A DNA stretch of 64,000 nt from Patiria pectinifera (taxonomy: Eukaryota; Echinodermata; Asteroidea; Valvatida; Asterinidae). Below the pieces are notes generated by a model that worked only from the letters and a program-made list of their open reading frames with translations, had not been told where the DNA came from and did not search any database. Shown here piece by piece: positions 904-46,549 of the stretch (the first letter of the stretch is position 1; every line of letters starts with the position of its first letter). The stretch covers positions 25,434,197 to 25,498,196 of the forward strand of contig CM057149.1 in assembly GCA_029964075.1 (NCBI GenBank), read 5' to 3'. The translations under genes and the position numbers were made by a program.

Positions 904-974
904 GTAACTCCAGCTGACATGTTCCATATTCACATGTGAATGAATATGGAACATGTCAGCTGGAGTTACTCAAG
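904..974. repeat. Near-perfect palindrome (about 31-bp arms)
   Basis: GAGTAACTCCAGCTGACATG...TTCCATATTCA is followed by its reverse complement with only a few bases between. The right arm ends just before the first unit of the minisatellite arm that starts near 982. Confidence 0.9.
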
Positions 975-981
975 CGGTTTC

Positions 982-3371
982 GATCCAACTCGGACCCAAA
1001 CCAACTCGGACCCAAGCCAACTCGGACCCATGCCAACTCGGACCCACTACCAACTCGGACCCATGCCAACGCGGACCCACTACCAACTCGGACCCACTAC
1101 CAACTCGGACCCACTACCAACTCGGACCCACAACCAACTCGGACCCACTACCAACTCGGACCCGTGTATGACCAACTCGGACCCATCGTTTTCAATCATT
1201 CATTTCATAAAGTTTGTCCACTTCTCATCCGTTATTACAGTGATGCTGTTTAGTATAAATTTTCATTGTAATTTTAAGGTAAATTATCTCATATCTGTAT
1301 TGCAGCAGTATAACATTTTTGTCGTTGTAAAGCGCATTGAAATGCTATTTTGAAATGCACTTTAAAAGTGTAATTAATTATTTATTATTTGTATTTGTTT
1401 CCATTAAAACATATTGCGCTTTAAAAGTTTAACCAATTATTTATTTTCATTAAAACATATTAATTGACATCGTTAACACTATCTTGCTAAATTTAACAGC
1501 AATTTATTTCGTTTTTAATCCAAACTTCAACGTAGCGCCTTAAGAACAGATCTTCATAGAAAAATTAAATTGGAAAGTATGGCATTAAAACATAAACACT
1601 TTCAAACATAACATTATTAACTCAATAAATATTAGTAAACATTATAAGCCAATAAATAAAATAAATAAGATATAAAAACGAAATCTTTTCTAATCTCTAT
1701 TTAAAAAAAACCCCACATAAACACCATTGCATACACTGCAAGAAAAACGAAGGTTCCGTATTAAACAAAAAAGTTAAATCAAAAAAGTATAAAAAGTTAA
1801 TCGGATTCGTAAAAAAAACACCACAAAATTGAAAGCCAGCATGTGAATTAAAAAATGATCAAGTTTAATCCCCTACAAATAGATGCACTGTCAATCATCA
1901 AAAAGGAGTATTGGAGCTCTGGGAAGATTATCCTTCAAGGCCTTACAGGTAGCTGCCTGTATGTTCCACTATGATGTTCCACGGGGGAAAAAAGGTTAAA
2001 TCAAAAAATTATTAAAAATTAAACAGATTCATAAAAAAAAATCCCACAAAATTCAAAGCCAGCATGTGAATTAAAAAAACTCAAACAATTACATGAAATG
2101 AAAGGCCTAAATAGTTATTTCAAATTAATAACTTCCTCACTGAAACAAAATGTGCCACTTAAAACCACTTGTTACACGACACAAAGGCCTGCAAAAACAA
2201 ACAAGTAATTTATTTTTTACTGAAAATTATAATCCTTTGAATTTCGTTTGTAAAAGAAAATCGAGATTTTGAAAAAGCACGTACATGTATATATCAAGTT
2301 GTACAAATGACATAGGGGGCCTATGATATGCCTAACCTATACTATACGCTATTCTCTTGGTTTAGCTTCACAGGTCACGGTTTCAAAAAGCTAAGCACGT
2401 TTAGTTTCATGACATTCAAAACGATAAGCATTTAGCAAAAGTATTTACTGTACGCATCATAAAATAGCGCTCCACACAGCGGCAATAAAAGAAAGGCAGT
2501 GGATATTTTGCCGGAGACGGCAAACCTTCAGTAAACGTTAGTTTGCCGGATATGCACTGAACATGCGCAGTTACTGTTTTTTTGTACTTAAACATTTTCC
2601 GGTGACAAATTTTAGTCTGGCTCCATGCCAATATTATCGTTGTATTTTTGTATTAACAAGATGGGAATCAGACCATTTTATAATTTTGGACTTTATTTCC
2701 CTTTAAAAAAAATCCTCCAGAGCCACAAATCTGAAAAAGAAAAAGTAATACTCTGCAATAAAATGTTTGAGACATATTAAAATAATAAAAGAAGAATATT
2801 CTTATTTATTTGGGGATGGGAAAAAAAAACCTTAAAATTGTGGCGGGGGTCAGGATTCGAACTCGGGACTTCCCACTCACTAGAGCTATTGCTTAACCAC
2901 TGCACCAACTGTGCTACACAACTTTGGTGGGAATTTAATACATGTTATAATTCAGCCCTATCTTAAAGAGTACAGCGCCCTCTGTTGATATGGATTGCCG
3001 CCGGCAAACCTTTAGTAAACGTTAGTTTGCCGGCGTTACCTCCGGCAAAATATACACTACCTAAAAGAAAACAACAAAACTAAAAGCCCCATTCTGCCCA
3101 ATATAATTACAGAATATCTTCACTATTAGCACTAACATTAAGATCACTTATAAATATAATCTCTGAAACTAATGATTGAGTCATTGTTGGGTCCGAGTTG
3201 GTAGTGGGTCCGAGTTGGTAGTCGGTCCGAGTTGGTCGCGGGTCCGACTTGGTAGTGGGTCCGAGTTGGTAGTGGGTCCGAGTTGGTAGTGGGTCCGAGT
3301 TGGCGTGGGTCCGAGTTGGCATGGGTCCGACTTGGCATGGGTCCGACTTGGTTTGGGTCCGAGTTGACCTG
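982..3371. mobile_element. Foldback-type element with inverted minisatellite arms (TU-like)
   Basis: Left arm (about 982-1184): about 12 units of CCAACTCGGACCCA plus 2-3 variable bases (16-17 bp). Right arm (about 3187-3371): the same unit in inverse orientation. Unit variants run in mirrored order: the outermost unit ends AAA in both arms, next come ATG-type units of 16 bp, and inner units are the 17-bp CTA type. The inner edges also match (TCAATCATT followed by TTTCA on both sides). The 2-kb AT-rich middle has no long reading frame but contains a tRNA-like SINE. Sea urchin TU and Drosophila FB elements share this design of inverted ends made of short tandem repeats. No target-site duplication could be fixed. 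Confidence 0.7.
2841..2931 (-). mobile_element. tRNA-derived SINE fragment
   Basis: Reverse complement shows an A-box (TAGCACAGTTGG) and a B-box (GAGTTCGAATCC) spaced as in a tRNA gene, but the flanks do not form an acceptor stem. It is better read as a SINE head. Confidence 0.6.
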
Positions 3372-24700: not shown

Positions 24701-24782
24701 CATCTCACACCGACAGAGGGCGCAATTCAAAAATGAAATCCACTGTGTGCGTTCGCAAAAAGTTACTCACCGAAACTCCCCG

Positions 24783-25676
24783 ATGTTTTACAGCAAGAGA
24801 CTTCGAAACTTTCTCAACAAGTGGCCAGGAAAGAGAAGGTTCGGAATCTATCGATTCTTGCCAGTGTTCTTCGTTGTCGGGGCGTCGCTTGAATGGGTTA
24901 TGATCAACGCACGCATTGCACCGGGCCGAGAAACTTTCTGTAAGTCCTGCGCGGTTCCTGCTGCGCTAATGTGAATAGACGTGAATAGATAGCTGACTGC
25001 GGGGTACCAGACTAATTTTTTTTTTTATCTCGATTGCCATTGCCAATTGCCATACAAAATTGTATCGTGCTGCTAAAGTGTTATTCTTATTTAAGATTTA
25101 AAGTGAAATAGCTTTGTTGTATTGGATCCATAATTGATCAAAGTACTTTACTCATGCTCATTTGCAACCCAAATTCGCTAAATGATTTTTATTTAACTAT
25201 TTTAAGCAAAAAATTTAAATAAAAATTAAAAGGAAAAAACAATTTTAGGGCGGGGGCGGGGGAGTGTATTTTTTGCCGTGACTGTCAATAAACTTCCTAA
25301 CACTACTTTGCCGTGAGTGTGCTCCAAGAACCCGTGTCATAGTACAGGCATGCTACTTTTCCCCGGATCCACAAACTGTTTCGCTTTTCACTCTCATGAA
25401 TGCCACTGTACAAAGATACTTTTGAATAAATGTTGCCTTTGAATTAAAAATTGAATTGAATTTAAATAAGACATCGCTGCGTGCAGAACAACTTGTCGAC
25501 TTAGTATGATAAAAGTCGTTCAGATTCTGTACATTTGTGAAGTGTACAGTTCAGTCTGAACAATGTCATACTGCTTTTCTCAATTATTTGCAGATGACGT
25601 TTACCGCAGGAAGCAAGCTGAACAATTATATGCCGAGAAACTAGCCAAACCAGTGGAGGAAAGTCAACAAGTGTGA
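24783..25676 (+). CDS. UQCC5: Ubiquinol-cytochrome c reductase complex assembly factor 5 (SMIM4), 2 exons, complete
   Basis: Coding exons 24783-24939 and 25594-25676 (GTAAGT donor; TTTGCAG acceptor; codon split T|AT) give 79 aa; human SMIM4 has 70. The core is PGKRRFGIYRFLPVFFVVGASLEWVM (residues 15-40 with one membrane segment), then RETFYDVYRRK, the last matching the human QETFYDVYRRK closely. In animals this small inner-membrane protein is needed for early cytochrome b / complex III assembly. The chosen ATG lies in a poor initiation context (C at -3). An upstream out-of-frame ATG at 24733 opens a reading frame that overlaps the start and ends near 24902, unless transcription begins downstream of it. 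The stop is 246 bp before the UQCC6 start on the same strand. Confidence 0.93.
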
Positions 25677-25922
25677 TCCGTCTGAGTACATCTGGTGTGT
25701 GGAACTCTATGTCCTTGACAGACCTGCTGCGAGTGACGAGATTGGAAAAAGGCCGTCGCTTCATACGAACAAAAAACTTTGTTTATGTTACCTGTAGCAT
25801 ATTTCCAACAACAAAACTCACAATATCAAAGTGAAAACTCCGTGAAGAGAAGCCAAACTTGATGAACATTCAGACAAGTTGAGATTTTGTTTGAAGATTG
25901 CAACTCACAGTTGGTCAGTAAA

Positions 25923-26614
25923 ATGCCGGCTGGAGCTGACTGGCTTCCGTATTTGAAGTTCCTGGCTGCAGGAATGCTCTCCATGATGGCTGGGGCACAG
26001 GCTGTGCATGCTTACTACAAGCCAGACATGGTAAATCCAAATGTACTACATTTGTACTTGGATTGTTACTTTTTAATATCTTCCTGTATGTGCAATATCA
26101 AGTTCACGACAGTTTCCTTTGAAGTCCTGCACTCAGAATAGGCCACTTTGGTATGTCGATTAAGTGGTCCTGGTCAAAGGTCATTTGGGATGAAATGGCC
26201 GATATCATCAAGCATCTTGTAACCGTGATATTACACGAATGCCCATTCTGCTCTTAATTAACAGGTGAGCATTGTGCCGACCGTCTCTTTGCGTGTTCAT
26301 GCGCCTTTGATGAGTGTTCGATTACCGTTATATCCCAAATGACCTGTGACCCATATCATTGTGCGCATGCGCAGTTGAAATACCCAACTGGCTTAGAAAA
26401 CATCTTGCTTTGTATGTTCACTTTGCTGGACTTGCTTGTCCTGACTAAGCAATGATAGTTAACGCTGGAGGTCGATACATTGTAAGTATTTTCATTTTGT
26501 TTTTGTTTTCTGCAGTCAATACCTGATGTTCCTCCTGCAAGAGGTGAATTGGGACGGTTACGAGACGAAGCAAGACAAAAAGAGAAAGAGCAAGAGGAGG
26601 CCAAAGACAGATAG
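25923..26614 (+). CDS. UQCC6: Ubiquinol-cytochrome c reductase complex assembly factor 6 (brawnin, C12orf73), 2 exons, complete
   Basis: Coding exons 25923-26030 and 26516-26614 join at phase 0 and give 68 aa; human brawnin has 71. The N-terminus MPAGADWLPYLKFLAAG parallels the human MPAGVPMSTYLKMFAAS. One membrane segment spans residues 8-28, followed by HAYYKPDM and SIPDVPPARGEL (human HRYYRPDL, TIPEIPPKRGEL) and a charged Lys/Glu tail. It is an inner-membrane microprotein required for complex III assembly. The ATG has A at -3, a better context than the UQCC5 start. Four further ATGs lie in the spacer or out of frame in UQCC5 exon 2, so translation from a shared mRNA would need leaky scanning, reinitiation, or a splice acceptor such as CACAG at about 25910. 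The first ATTAAA on this strand after either gene is at 26700. Confidence 0.93.
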
Positions 26615-26699: not shown

Positions 26700-26705
26700 A
26701 TTAAA
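26700..26705 (+). promoter_or_regulatory. Candidate polyadenylation signal ATTAAA for UQCC5/UQCC6
   Basis: ATTAAA starts 86 bp after the UQCC6 stop codon. It is the first polyadenylation hexamer of either common form on this strand after the UQCC5 stop, in line with one shared mRNA end. Confidence 0.45.
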
Positions 26706-27015
26706 GATCAGAAACTTGTTTTTCCCATATTCCTTAATATTACAGAGTTTGAGATCGGATGTCGTCACATTAAGGTGTGAGAATAGATAAAGTGTGCTAT
26801 ATTCAGTTGAAATCTCTCACAAAGTACAATATCAAGGTCAGACAGCAAACTTTGCCTTTAGTAGTCAATTTATTTGCATTCACACTTTACAAATATTATT
26901 TTCAGCAACAGCACCTCAGCAATATAGTAACAAAATTTAACCGAGTTTGGGAGGAATGGAACCCTTTTTTTAATGATTGAGAAGTTATTTTCTCTTTTAG
27001 TAATCCATGTGACCA

Positions 27016-43987: not shown

Positions 43988-46549
43988 TCAAGACTTGCTC
44001 CCCTTCTTCGAAGTAACATCATCGGTAATAATGTCTGCTGAAGCTCCTGAAGATGCCTTGTCCACAGCATCTTCATTGTTCACAACAGTGCTCATTCCAC
44101 TGTCAACAGTGTCTGAATCTAATGGTGTAGCTGCTTCTTGGCGTTCACTGATGTGATGGAGTGCGTCTCCTCCCACTTCTTGGGCCGCCTCCTCTGCCTC
44201 TTGTACCATTTCCTTCTCCTTCTGCTCTCCGACGGGGTATAGCTCCGGGTACTGCACCATGCACTCCTGCATGGTGCGAAACTTGTCTATGCAGTCTGAT
44301 CCCTTGGCCTCTGCCTCGCTGAAGTGGAAGCAGGAGAACGCCTCTCGAAATTCCACCCCGCAGGGTCCGCTGGCCATGCCCCCCAGGCAGGGGCAGCTCC
44401 AGTTGATGTCCCCGTTGGCAAGGATGAGACCTGATATGATATCGCGAAGTTAAAACTTGAATATCAGAAACACAACTTTTGTGATAGACAATCATTATCA
44501 TAGCACCCCTCCTGTAACACCAAAGTTTAATTGTAAACAGTTTATGTTTTATGCATAATTTTTAGCATCCTCCACAGAACTGCAGACATTATACTTGATC
44601 TAATAATTTGACATTATTCGAAGTTACATTCTCCTGAAATTTCAGCCTGAGGAGCAAAACCAATTCGATACTCAAAGTTTTTATTACATAAAAATAAAAT
44701 TGGACTTGGTACTTCAGATTTGTGTGTGTGTGTGTGTAAATTATGAATGACTTTTGAATTTCCAAAGATTTTTTTTTATCAATGTGATGAAAGTTACAGG
44801 TTTCATTGTTTCAACTAATCAGGAATATTTGTTAATTAATGAATGTCAATGACATATATTTGTATTCAGGCCCATCACTGCACCATGCACTGTTAGAGTT
44901 CCGGGTGTTGAACTCTTTCAGTTGAAGATTCGAATCATAAATGATAGGTGACCACATCAGGTCATATAATAACATCTCATCATGGCCAGTAGAGGGCGCT
45001 TTGAATTGACCTATCAGACTTAACATTTCTCACTAGGACATGGAGCCTAGGTTTAGCTAGTGCATCATTGGCCTAATGAGTTACGATATGGGAGTCAGCT
45101 TTAGAAAGTCACATGTACATGACGAGAGCACTGCATTCTGCGTGAGGTGTTAGTGTACGGGAGAAATGGGCCAAACAAACAACAGGAAACGTGAGGAAGA
45201 CTGGGATACTGTATCAGAAGAACTAAGGGTGTTACAAAATGTACTTTTTGGTGTTATTCTTGCGAGAACCATCAGGATAAAACTGAGCAATTTATAGATG
45301 CCGGGGAATTGTAAGGTCTAACTAAATATGGTAAATTGGGATCTGTATTTTGAAATAAGCCTGTTTTTTCCAACGCTGGTCGACCGACCAGCATTGGAAA
45401 TTCATACAAAACGGCACTTTTCTTGAAATGACAGCATACATGTACCACCAGGTGCCACAAGTTTGCGGGATGCTTTATCTATCATTCACTAACAGTCCAG
45501 AAAGGTATTGCATAATAATTTGGTAGTTTTGTTTTTTGATGTTTGCAAATGTTGTATATTCCCTTTAAAGACCAGATCCAAATTACTTATGGAACACATG
45601 TGCCTATGAAAGTGGCTGAAGCCGCTTTTCATAGACACAGTGTTACGTCTAGCCATAGCCAGTAATCCAGACGCTGGCTAACTTCTTTACCTTCTCCTTC
45701 ATCGTCATCATCTTCGTTGACCAGATCTTTTACATTTGTTGTCTGAATGGGCTCATCGTGATCCTCTTTGGTCACAAAGATGATCCGGTCTTTTCCTGAT
45801 AAATAATACAAAACACTTGTCAGAATCACACCACCAAAAAGAATGGGAACAACTTTGATATGAAAAGGGGGGGGGGGGGGCTGTGTTAATAATAATAATA
45901 ATTACGCGCACTAGTCTAGGCCTATCTCTGGAATCCATTCAAAGGTGCTGGTCTATAGATGTAAAGTAAAAAAAAACCTCAATTATTTGGAAAAGCCATT
46001 TGGTACCCATCTTCCAAATGGGGGCGCTCTTCAAAACTGACCATTATTATGCATAAGCTACTGTAAATTTATATACCCATTTACACGACGCATTGTTGTA
46101 ATGGGTTTTGAGCGGGTTTTGTTTTGTGGGATTGATGTAAGAACTCTATAACCATTTATTGAAATAATTGCTGAACAAAAAAATGTTGTGACAAAAATCC
46201 GCCGGGGGCAGAGTGGCTCCTCTGCGCCCCCCGGATACGCCACTGCCCTTAAGCTTTGGACTCTCATCATAGTACAAAAATAATCAAATAAATGCGACTG
46301 TTCTACTGTACTCACTAGCGAAATACATTCTGCATCACTTGCTTCAATGCATTGCATGCACTGTTCACACACCGCAACATACATGGTATGTACATAATTT
46401 GTATGGAGCTTTGGAGGTATTATATTACTTCGACATCAGACATGGTCAGCAGGTCAGACCATGGAGCTACTAAACCGTCGTGTCGATGTCATGACTGTCG
46501 AATTCGATATTTCAGTCTTCTTACCTTCTTGCGTACAATGTGACATCAT
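43988..46549 (-). CDS. CHCHD4: Mitochondrial intermembrane space import and assembly protein 40 (MIA40/CHCHD4), 3 exons, complete
   Basis: Coding exons 46549-46525, 45795-45691 and 44430-43988 (stop TGA 43990-43988) join in phase to 190 aa. CHCHD4 is the oxidoreductase that traps and folds cysteine-rich proteins in the mitochondrial intermembrane space. The start [20 protein letters not shown] matches human [19 protein letters not shown]; a second in-frame ATG (46546) is equally possible. The redox-active CPC is at residues 56-58. The twin CX9C helices have Cys67/77 and Cys90/100 with exactly nine residues between each pair, so all functional cysteines are present. After YPELYP comes an acidic, Ser/Thr-rich tail of about 75 residues, longer than in human (142 aa in total). 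The gene lies antisense between the candidate first exons A and B of the SLC35A-like gene. Confidence 0.96.
44986..45000 (+). promoter_or_regulatory. CTCF-like motif CCAGTAGAGGGCGCT
   Basis: The 15 bases fit every position of the bilaterian CTCF core consensus CCASYAGRKGGCRSY. The site is in the second CHCHD4 intron and in the transporter's presumed first intron. Binding is not shown. Confidence 0.4.
46204..46252. repeat. hAT-MITE-like end fragment
   Basis: CCCCCCGGATACGCCACTG resembles the right end of the element at 11196-11383; no matching left end was found. Confidence 0.35.

Follow-up and report, generated by a model that had tools for sequence, protein, structure and literature searches.

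The window, the whole 64-kb stretch of DNA analysed here, contains UQCC5 (SMIM4/Sloth1) directly upstream of UQCC6 (C12orf73/BRAWNIN/Sloth2) on the same strand (Table 1). Both genes have intact open reading frames divided between two exons by a GT-AG intron, and encode proteins of 79 and 68 amino acids respectively. The spliced UQCC5 protein matches PF15114 (UPF0640) over residues 3–69 (5.6e-32, 109.9 bits) and the spliced UQCC6 protein matches PF14990 (DUF4516) over residues 1–44 (1.1e-20, 73.4 bits); each family has a curated cut-off of 27 bits. The initial annotation had named both genes and placed them in tandem 246 nt apart, and both the coordinates and the assignments hold, with the two Pfam matches well over cut-off. 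The ATTAAA that it noted 86 nt beyond the UQCC6 stop codon is present at 26700. In the spliced message the two open reading frames lie in the same frame with several stops in between.

Table 1. Predicted features of the UQCC5-UQCC6 locus and its surroundings (window coordinates).
Feature	Position	Strand	Remarks
RTCB (tRNA ligase)	about 22480 down to about 6851	-	Start 2.3 kb from that of UQCC5, in head-to-head arrangement
Possible upstream open reading frame, 56 codons	24733..24903	+	Out of frame with the UQCC5 start, which it overlaps; A at -3
UQCC5 (SMIM4/Sloth1) coding exon 1	24783..24939	+	PF15114 match; donor GTAAGT at 24940
ATG within UQCC5	24893		T at -3, G at +4; opens 16-codon open reading frame
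16-codon open reading frame (spliced message)	24893..25597	+	First ATG after leaky UQCC5 start
ATG within UQCC5	24900		Met40 of UQCC5; G at -3
UQCC5 intron, phase 1, 654 nt	24940..25593	+	GT...TTTGCAG; both ends unchanged in second copy
UQCC5 coding exon 2 with stop TGA	25594..25676	+	Restores ETFYDVYRR
Intercistronic spacer, 246 nt	25677..25922	+	Three ATGs; no AATAAA or ATTAAA
UQCC6 (C12orf73/BRAWNIN/Sloth2) coding exon 1	25923..26030	+	PF14990 match; start with A at -3
UQCC6 intron, phase 0, with dispersed repeat	26031..26515	+	GT...CTGCAG
UQCC6 coding exon 2 with stop TAG	26516..26614	+	PF14990 match of spliced protein
ATTAAA, probable polyadenylation signal for both genes	26700..26705	+	In both copies
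CENP-K exon	about 31.6-31.8 kb	-	7.7e-5, 22.8 bits, under cut-off of 27.2
CHCH-domain gene	43991-44449		
Nucleotide-sugar transporter	62669		

The residues ETFYDVYRR that are restored by splicing of UQCC5 are invariant or nearly so in an alignment of 11 sequences. The best two of 73 database relatives of UQCC5 are from the acorn worms Glandiceps talaboti (86% identity, covering 62% of the query) and Saccoglossus kowalevskii (70%, covering 97%). Within the 11-sequence alignment a two-residue insertion in the window protein (AP in ARIAPG) is found elsewhere only in these two, being absent from amphioxus, lamprey, zebrafish, frog, crocodile and three further UQCC5 sequences; it is also found in four additional sequences, P0075, P0047, P0076 and P0077. 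No solved structure matches UQCC5, and comparison of UQCC6 with solved structures gave two chance matches only (E values 0.43 and 0.44). A search with UQCC6 alone yielded no homologue, as too few words were in common with any candidate. Viral contigs gave no relative, and Rfam and tRNA scans of the window gave no matches. The proposal of Bosch et al. that the two genes are paralogues of each other is unsupported by profile comparison, which returned a probability of 0.5% over 17 columns in what is a weak test, as the UQCC6 profile contains two sequences only.

A second copy of the pair lies in inverted orientation 34 kb before the window (C21:25397872-25400269), likewise with UQCC5 directly upstream of UQCC6 on one strand, and a DNA-level search of the genome revealed no further copy of either gene among the 40 of 736 candidates that were scored. 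The second copy is part of an inverted repeat (C21:25310250-25578196) with arms of at least 116 kb, one of which contains the window. The repeat is centred on a 500-N gap (C21:25426900-25427399), its arms consist of collinear pieces that are about 78–99% identical, and exons of RTCB, the CHCH-domain gene and the transporter are also mirrored across it. Because the inverted arms mirror the same genes around the gap, the second copy is probably the other haplotype, left uncollapsed in the assembly; a true palindrome is less likely. A true local duplication of the pair was rejected, an assembly effect being the most likely source.

The coding parts of the two copies differ by eight substitutions in seven of 149 codons. 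Six of the seven changed codons are silent, and the sole amino acid change is UQCC5 V73 to E. Random placement of the same changes altered 5.85 residues on average, and one or none in only 1 of 3000 simulations; both genes in the second copy thus appear, from their pattern of substitution, to be under purifying selection. UQCC6 exon 1 is identical in the two copies (0/108 differences), and the spacer has five changes in 243 aligned sites together with two gap columns. Since the genes encode partners in one complex, adjoin on one strand and have both reading frames kept in two copies, the pairing is real and well kept, not a product of chance.

The copies also differ by several larger segments. 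The second copy alone has an insertion of ~440 bp just 3′ of UQCC6, corresponding to a site after window position 26735, which has TTAA at each end and the inverted termini CCCTAAAAGGGCC...GGCCCCTTTAGGG; we take this to resemble a piggyBac-type MITE. The second-copy UQCC6 intron contains ~570 bp of extra sequence (C21:25398221-25398791). The dispersed repeat in the UQCC6 intron of the window (26129-26396) has at least 38 other matches in the genome at 72–83% identity.

The start codons of the two genes differ in context as initially described, with that of UQCC5 being weak (C at -3, T at +4) and that of UQCC6 being better (A at -3). Seven ATGs lie between them in the spliced message. Those at 24893 and 24900 are in fair context, and the remaining five (25594, 25630, 25709, 25785 and 25862) all have T at -3; the last three of these are in the spacer. 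Pure leaky scanning as the sole route to UQCC6 is therefore rejected, in agreement with the caution in the initial annotation, based on the ATGs of the spacer, that it could not be a full explanation. The intervening ATGs weaken that mechanism, not the assignment of the gene pair. A more elaborate route may be proposed from scanning rules, in which UQCC5 would be read first from its weak start, and ribosomes leaking past it would translate the 16-codon open reading frame and thereby skip the ATG at 24900. Reinitiation could then occur ~326 nt after 25597 at the UQCC6 start codon (25923), with only ATGs that have T at -3 being passed, and would be the main way in which UQCC6 is read. The 56-codon upstream open reading frame, whose start codon at 24733 is kept in the second copy, could possibly divert ribosomes from UQCC5, and would be relevant only if transcription begins upstream of it.

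The organization of the locus resembles that of Drosophila sloth1-sloth2 (CG32736-CG42308), which were shown by cDNA, RT-PCR and reporters to be bicistronic (PMC9681215), as the initial annotation had stated. In both animals UQCC5 precedes UQCC6 on the same strand, a weak first start is followed by a better second one, and the products are partners in a complex; leaky scanning is the mechanism proposed for the fly genes (PMC9681215). However, the fly spacer is only 5 nt long, compared with 246 nt and three ATGs here, and the fly reading frames are frame-shifted whereas those of the window share a frame (PMC9681215); a shared message is probable for the window pair. Adjacent orthologues are also found in a choanoflagellate, a sea squirt and lamprey, where linked pairs with a similar bicistronic architecture are described (Bosch et al. 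2022, PMC9681215); its main text mentions neither hemichordate nor sea urchin. The human orthologues, SMIM4 and C12orf73, function in complex III assembly (PMC9681215, PMC8719881) and lie apart on chromosomes 3 and 12 respectively (PMC9681215), as the initial annotation had stated, in contrast with their adjacency in the window. In humans, UQCC5 resides in the inner membrane and joins UQCC1/UQCC2 on newly made cytochrome b, and SMIM4 and C12orf73 depend on each other within a shared complex (PMC8719881). By analogy with these human-cell data, both proteins of this animal would enter the inner membrane of mitochondria, act with UQCC1/UQCC2 in binding new cytochrome b, and stabilize each other. 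Because the two would stabilize one another, a shared message may help keep them in step.

A search with the joined UQCC5 and UQCC6 proteins identified P0075 as the best of 49 matches; no other match among those listed contains both domains. P0075 is a single open frame of 174 amino acids (57% identical over 97%), with UQCC5 at residues 3–68 and UQCC6 at residues 99–143 by Pfam, and comprises six member sequences from five contigs, of which the longest has 2446 bases. It has neither intron and no stop between the domains, which are joined by a linker of roughly 19–30 residues. P0047, P0076 and P0077, on the other hand, continue past ETF at the point of the first intron, as if reading into the UQCC5 intron. 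The lack of introns in P0075, set against these three, suggests that it derives from a spliced message of a related animal carrying both genes; alternatively, it might be a genomic contig from an intron-poor species. P0075 retains the UQCC6 methionine, and a lysine codon precedes this in both P0075 and the window, such that the A at -3 is kept. A structure model of P0075 is of too low a confidence to be informative, and has a mean pLDDT of 61.4 and a pTM of 0.26, with only helices such as 18–45 and 106–130 being readable.

One shared UQCC5-UQCC6 message is likely in this animal, given the bicistronic mRNA of Drosophila and the two-domain frame of P0075. A single promoter immediately 5′ of 24783 and directed away from RTCB would yield one pre-mRNA, from which both introns would be removed and which would end after the ATTAAA at 26700. 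The initial annotation had pointed also to a spacer devoid of AATAAA and ATTAAA. This absence is genuine and yet carries no weight as evidence for one message, since 82% of 2000 dinucleotide-shuffled spacers likewise lack both hexamers, as do 849 of 1276 real 245-nt windows of the sequence; moreover, the spacer contains the variant hexamers AAAAAG (25746) and AGTAAA (25917). The lack of a poly(A) signal was thus rejected as a sign of a joint transcript.

With this absence meaning little, the genes might be two monocistronic neighbours, in which transcription of UQCC6 begins separately, within the spacer or the UQCC5 intron, and that of UQCC5 terminates at a non-canonical poly(A) site. The 246-nt spacer, unlike the 5 nt in Drosophila (PMC9681215), leaves room for a separate transcription start or end, as does the 654-nt intron, and a figure legend of Bosch et al. 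admits 'adjacent separate transcripts' among the linked cases (PMC9681215). We nonetheless consider such an arrangement unlikely, because P0075 joins both domains in a single frame without introns, and the spacer has neither raised CpG (o/e 0.70) nor raised GC (0.40). An operon-like precursor could alternatively be resolved into separate UQCC5 and UQCC6 mRNAs if a spliced leader were trans-spliced upstream of UQCC6, where there is a possible acceptor CAG (25908-25910) before the start codon, and sea squirts use trans-splicing. But neither hemichordates nor echinoderms are known to possess a proven spliced leader, and P0075 speaks for joined mature messages, making this route highly improbable. 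Sea squirts do carry the linked pair (PMC9681215), and a review names putative echinoderm spliced leaders but omits them as undecided (PMC3795323).

The least probable product, with only a very slight chance, is a single fused protein read through UQCC5 into UQCC6, as might be imagined from the open frame of P0075 and from the frame shared by the two window genes in the spliced message. The window has several stops in the spacer frame, the second methionine is kept in P0075, and the C-termini of human SMIM4 and C12ORF73 are both located in the intermembrane space (PMC8719881, PMC7066179), so that the two domains could be joined only by a short linker spanning the membrane. Because a joined protein with such a linker is ill suited to the membrane, the topology suggests that UQCC6 may still be initiated separately in P0075. 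P0075 offers a starting point for finding a lineage in which the two genes are becoming fused.

The initial annotation regarded the linkage as ancestral to bilaterians and later broken in vertebrates. The first part is published and extends deeper, to a choanoflagellate, whereas the break is placed more precisely in jawed vertebrates and looks like reciprocal loss, not a simple move. Unlinking toward jawed vertebrates was proposed by Bosch et al. 2022 (PMC9681215); the available passages of that paper give no mechanism, and the string 'duplicat' appears three times in its main text, never about whole genomes. On sheep chromosome 19 the genes are listed as NEK4, SPCS1, GLT8D1, GNL3, PBRM1, SMIM4, NT5DC2, STAB1 and NISCH (PMC8327097; one unnamed gene and snoRNAs omitted here), and on cattle chromosome 5 as STAB2, NT5DC3, HSP90B1, C5H12orf73, TDG, GLT8D2, HCFC2 and NFYB (PMC10818672, table 5). 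On the assumption that both lists follow the map, two paralogous blocks, STAB1-NT5DC2-UQCC5-GLT8D1 and STAB2-NT5DC3-UQCC6-GLT8D2, have the same order, and UQCC5 and UQCC6 occupy the same slot between the NT5DC and GLT8D genes of their respective blocks. Lists for human chromosome 3 agree in content, and not fully in order (PMC5545733, which is alphabetical; PMC6906185); that for human chromosome 12 also agrees in content, with UQCC6 not named there (PMC11061283), and UQCC6 is likewise absent from a sheep candidate list (PMC9858812).

Because three paralogue pairs together with UQCC5 and UQCC6 keep the same order and place, we lean toward a history in which the bicistronic gene was split by whole-genome duplication along with the STAB-NT5DC-GLT8D block followed by reciprocal loss, and in which ambulacrarian messages still carry both genes, in one lineage within a single open frame. 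The pair would have been copied with the block in jawed vertebrates, one block keeping UQCC5 and the other UQCC6, and the locus described here and the lamprey pair would represent the state before the split. On this view the three paralogue pairs would date from the vertebrate duplications. A genome search with PF05761 (NT5DC-type) gave 12 exon matches, seven on C5, five on C16 and none on C21. The STAB-NT5DC-GLT8D surroundings are therefore either not ancestral around the pair, having been assembled in the chordate line, or were lost in this animal. Among the papers listed in a literature search none joins SMIM4, C12orf73, UQCC6 or sloth2 with the terms ohnolog or paralogon, and no paper was found with at least five of the six STAB, NT5DC and GLT8D names; the account by duplication and loss is likely not yet in print.

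Our overall reading, to which we assign a probability of roughly 0.66, is that the pair in this animal has the gene form of sloth1-sloth2, with one mRNA translated by leaking and reinitiation, and with duplication followed by loss in vertebrates. The bicistronic pair as a kind, its linkage beyond bilaterians and its unlinking toward jawed vertebrates are known from Bosch et al. (PMC9681215); new leads are the way in which it was lost in vertebrates and the relative with a single frame, P0075. Stable two-protein messages are rare in animals, and this one codes for two mutually needed partners that are reportedly linked as far out as a choanoflagellate and given up in jawed vertebrates. If duplication and loss did occur, the pair offers a natural test of the worth of a shared message, with protein balance coupled in fly, this animal and lamprey and uncoupled in mouse and fish, and ambulacrarians would show how a eukaryotic two-gene message gets kept, fused or broken.

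Several further features of the window were noted. The head-to-head arrangement of RTCB and UQCC5 makes a shared promoter region possible. Another CENP-K frame in the set of window frames has a match of 6.9e-20. Weak Pfam matches, each to one frame within 1-32303/32133-63876, are to Serinc (7.7e-4) and Sde2_N_Ubi_vert (2e-4), and a tandem array at 918-1350 (+) has a QLGPTTNSDP-like translation.
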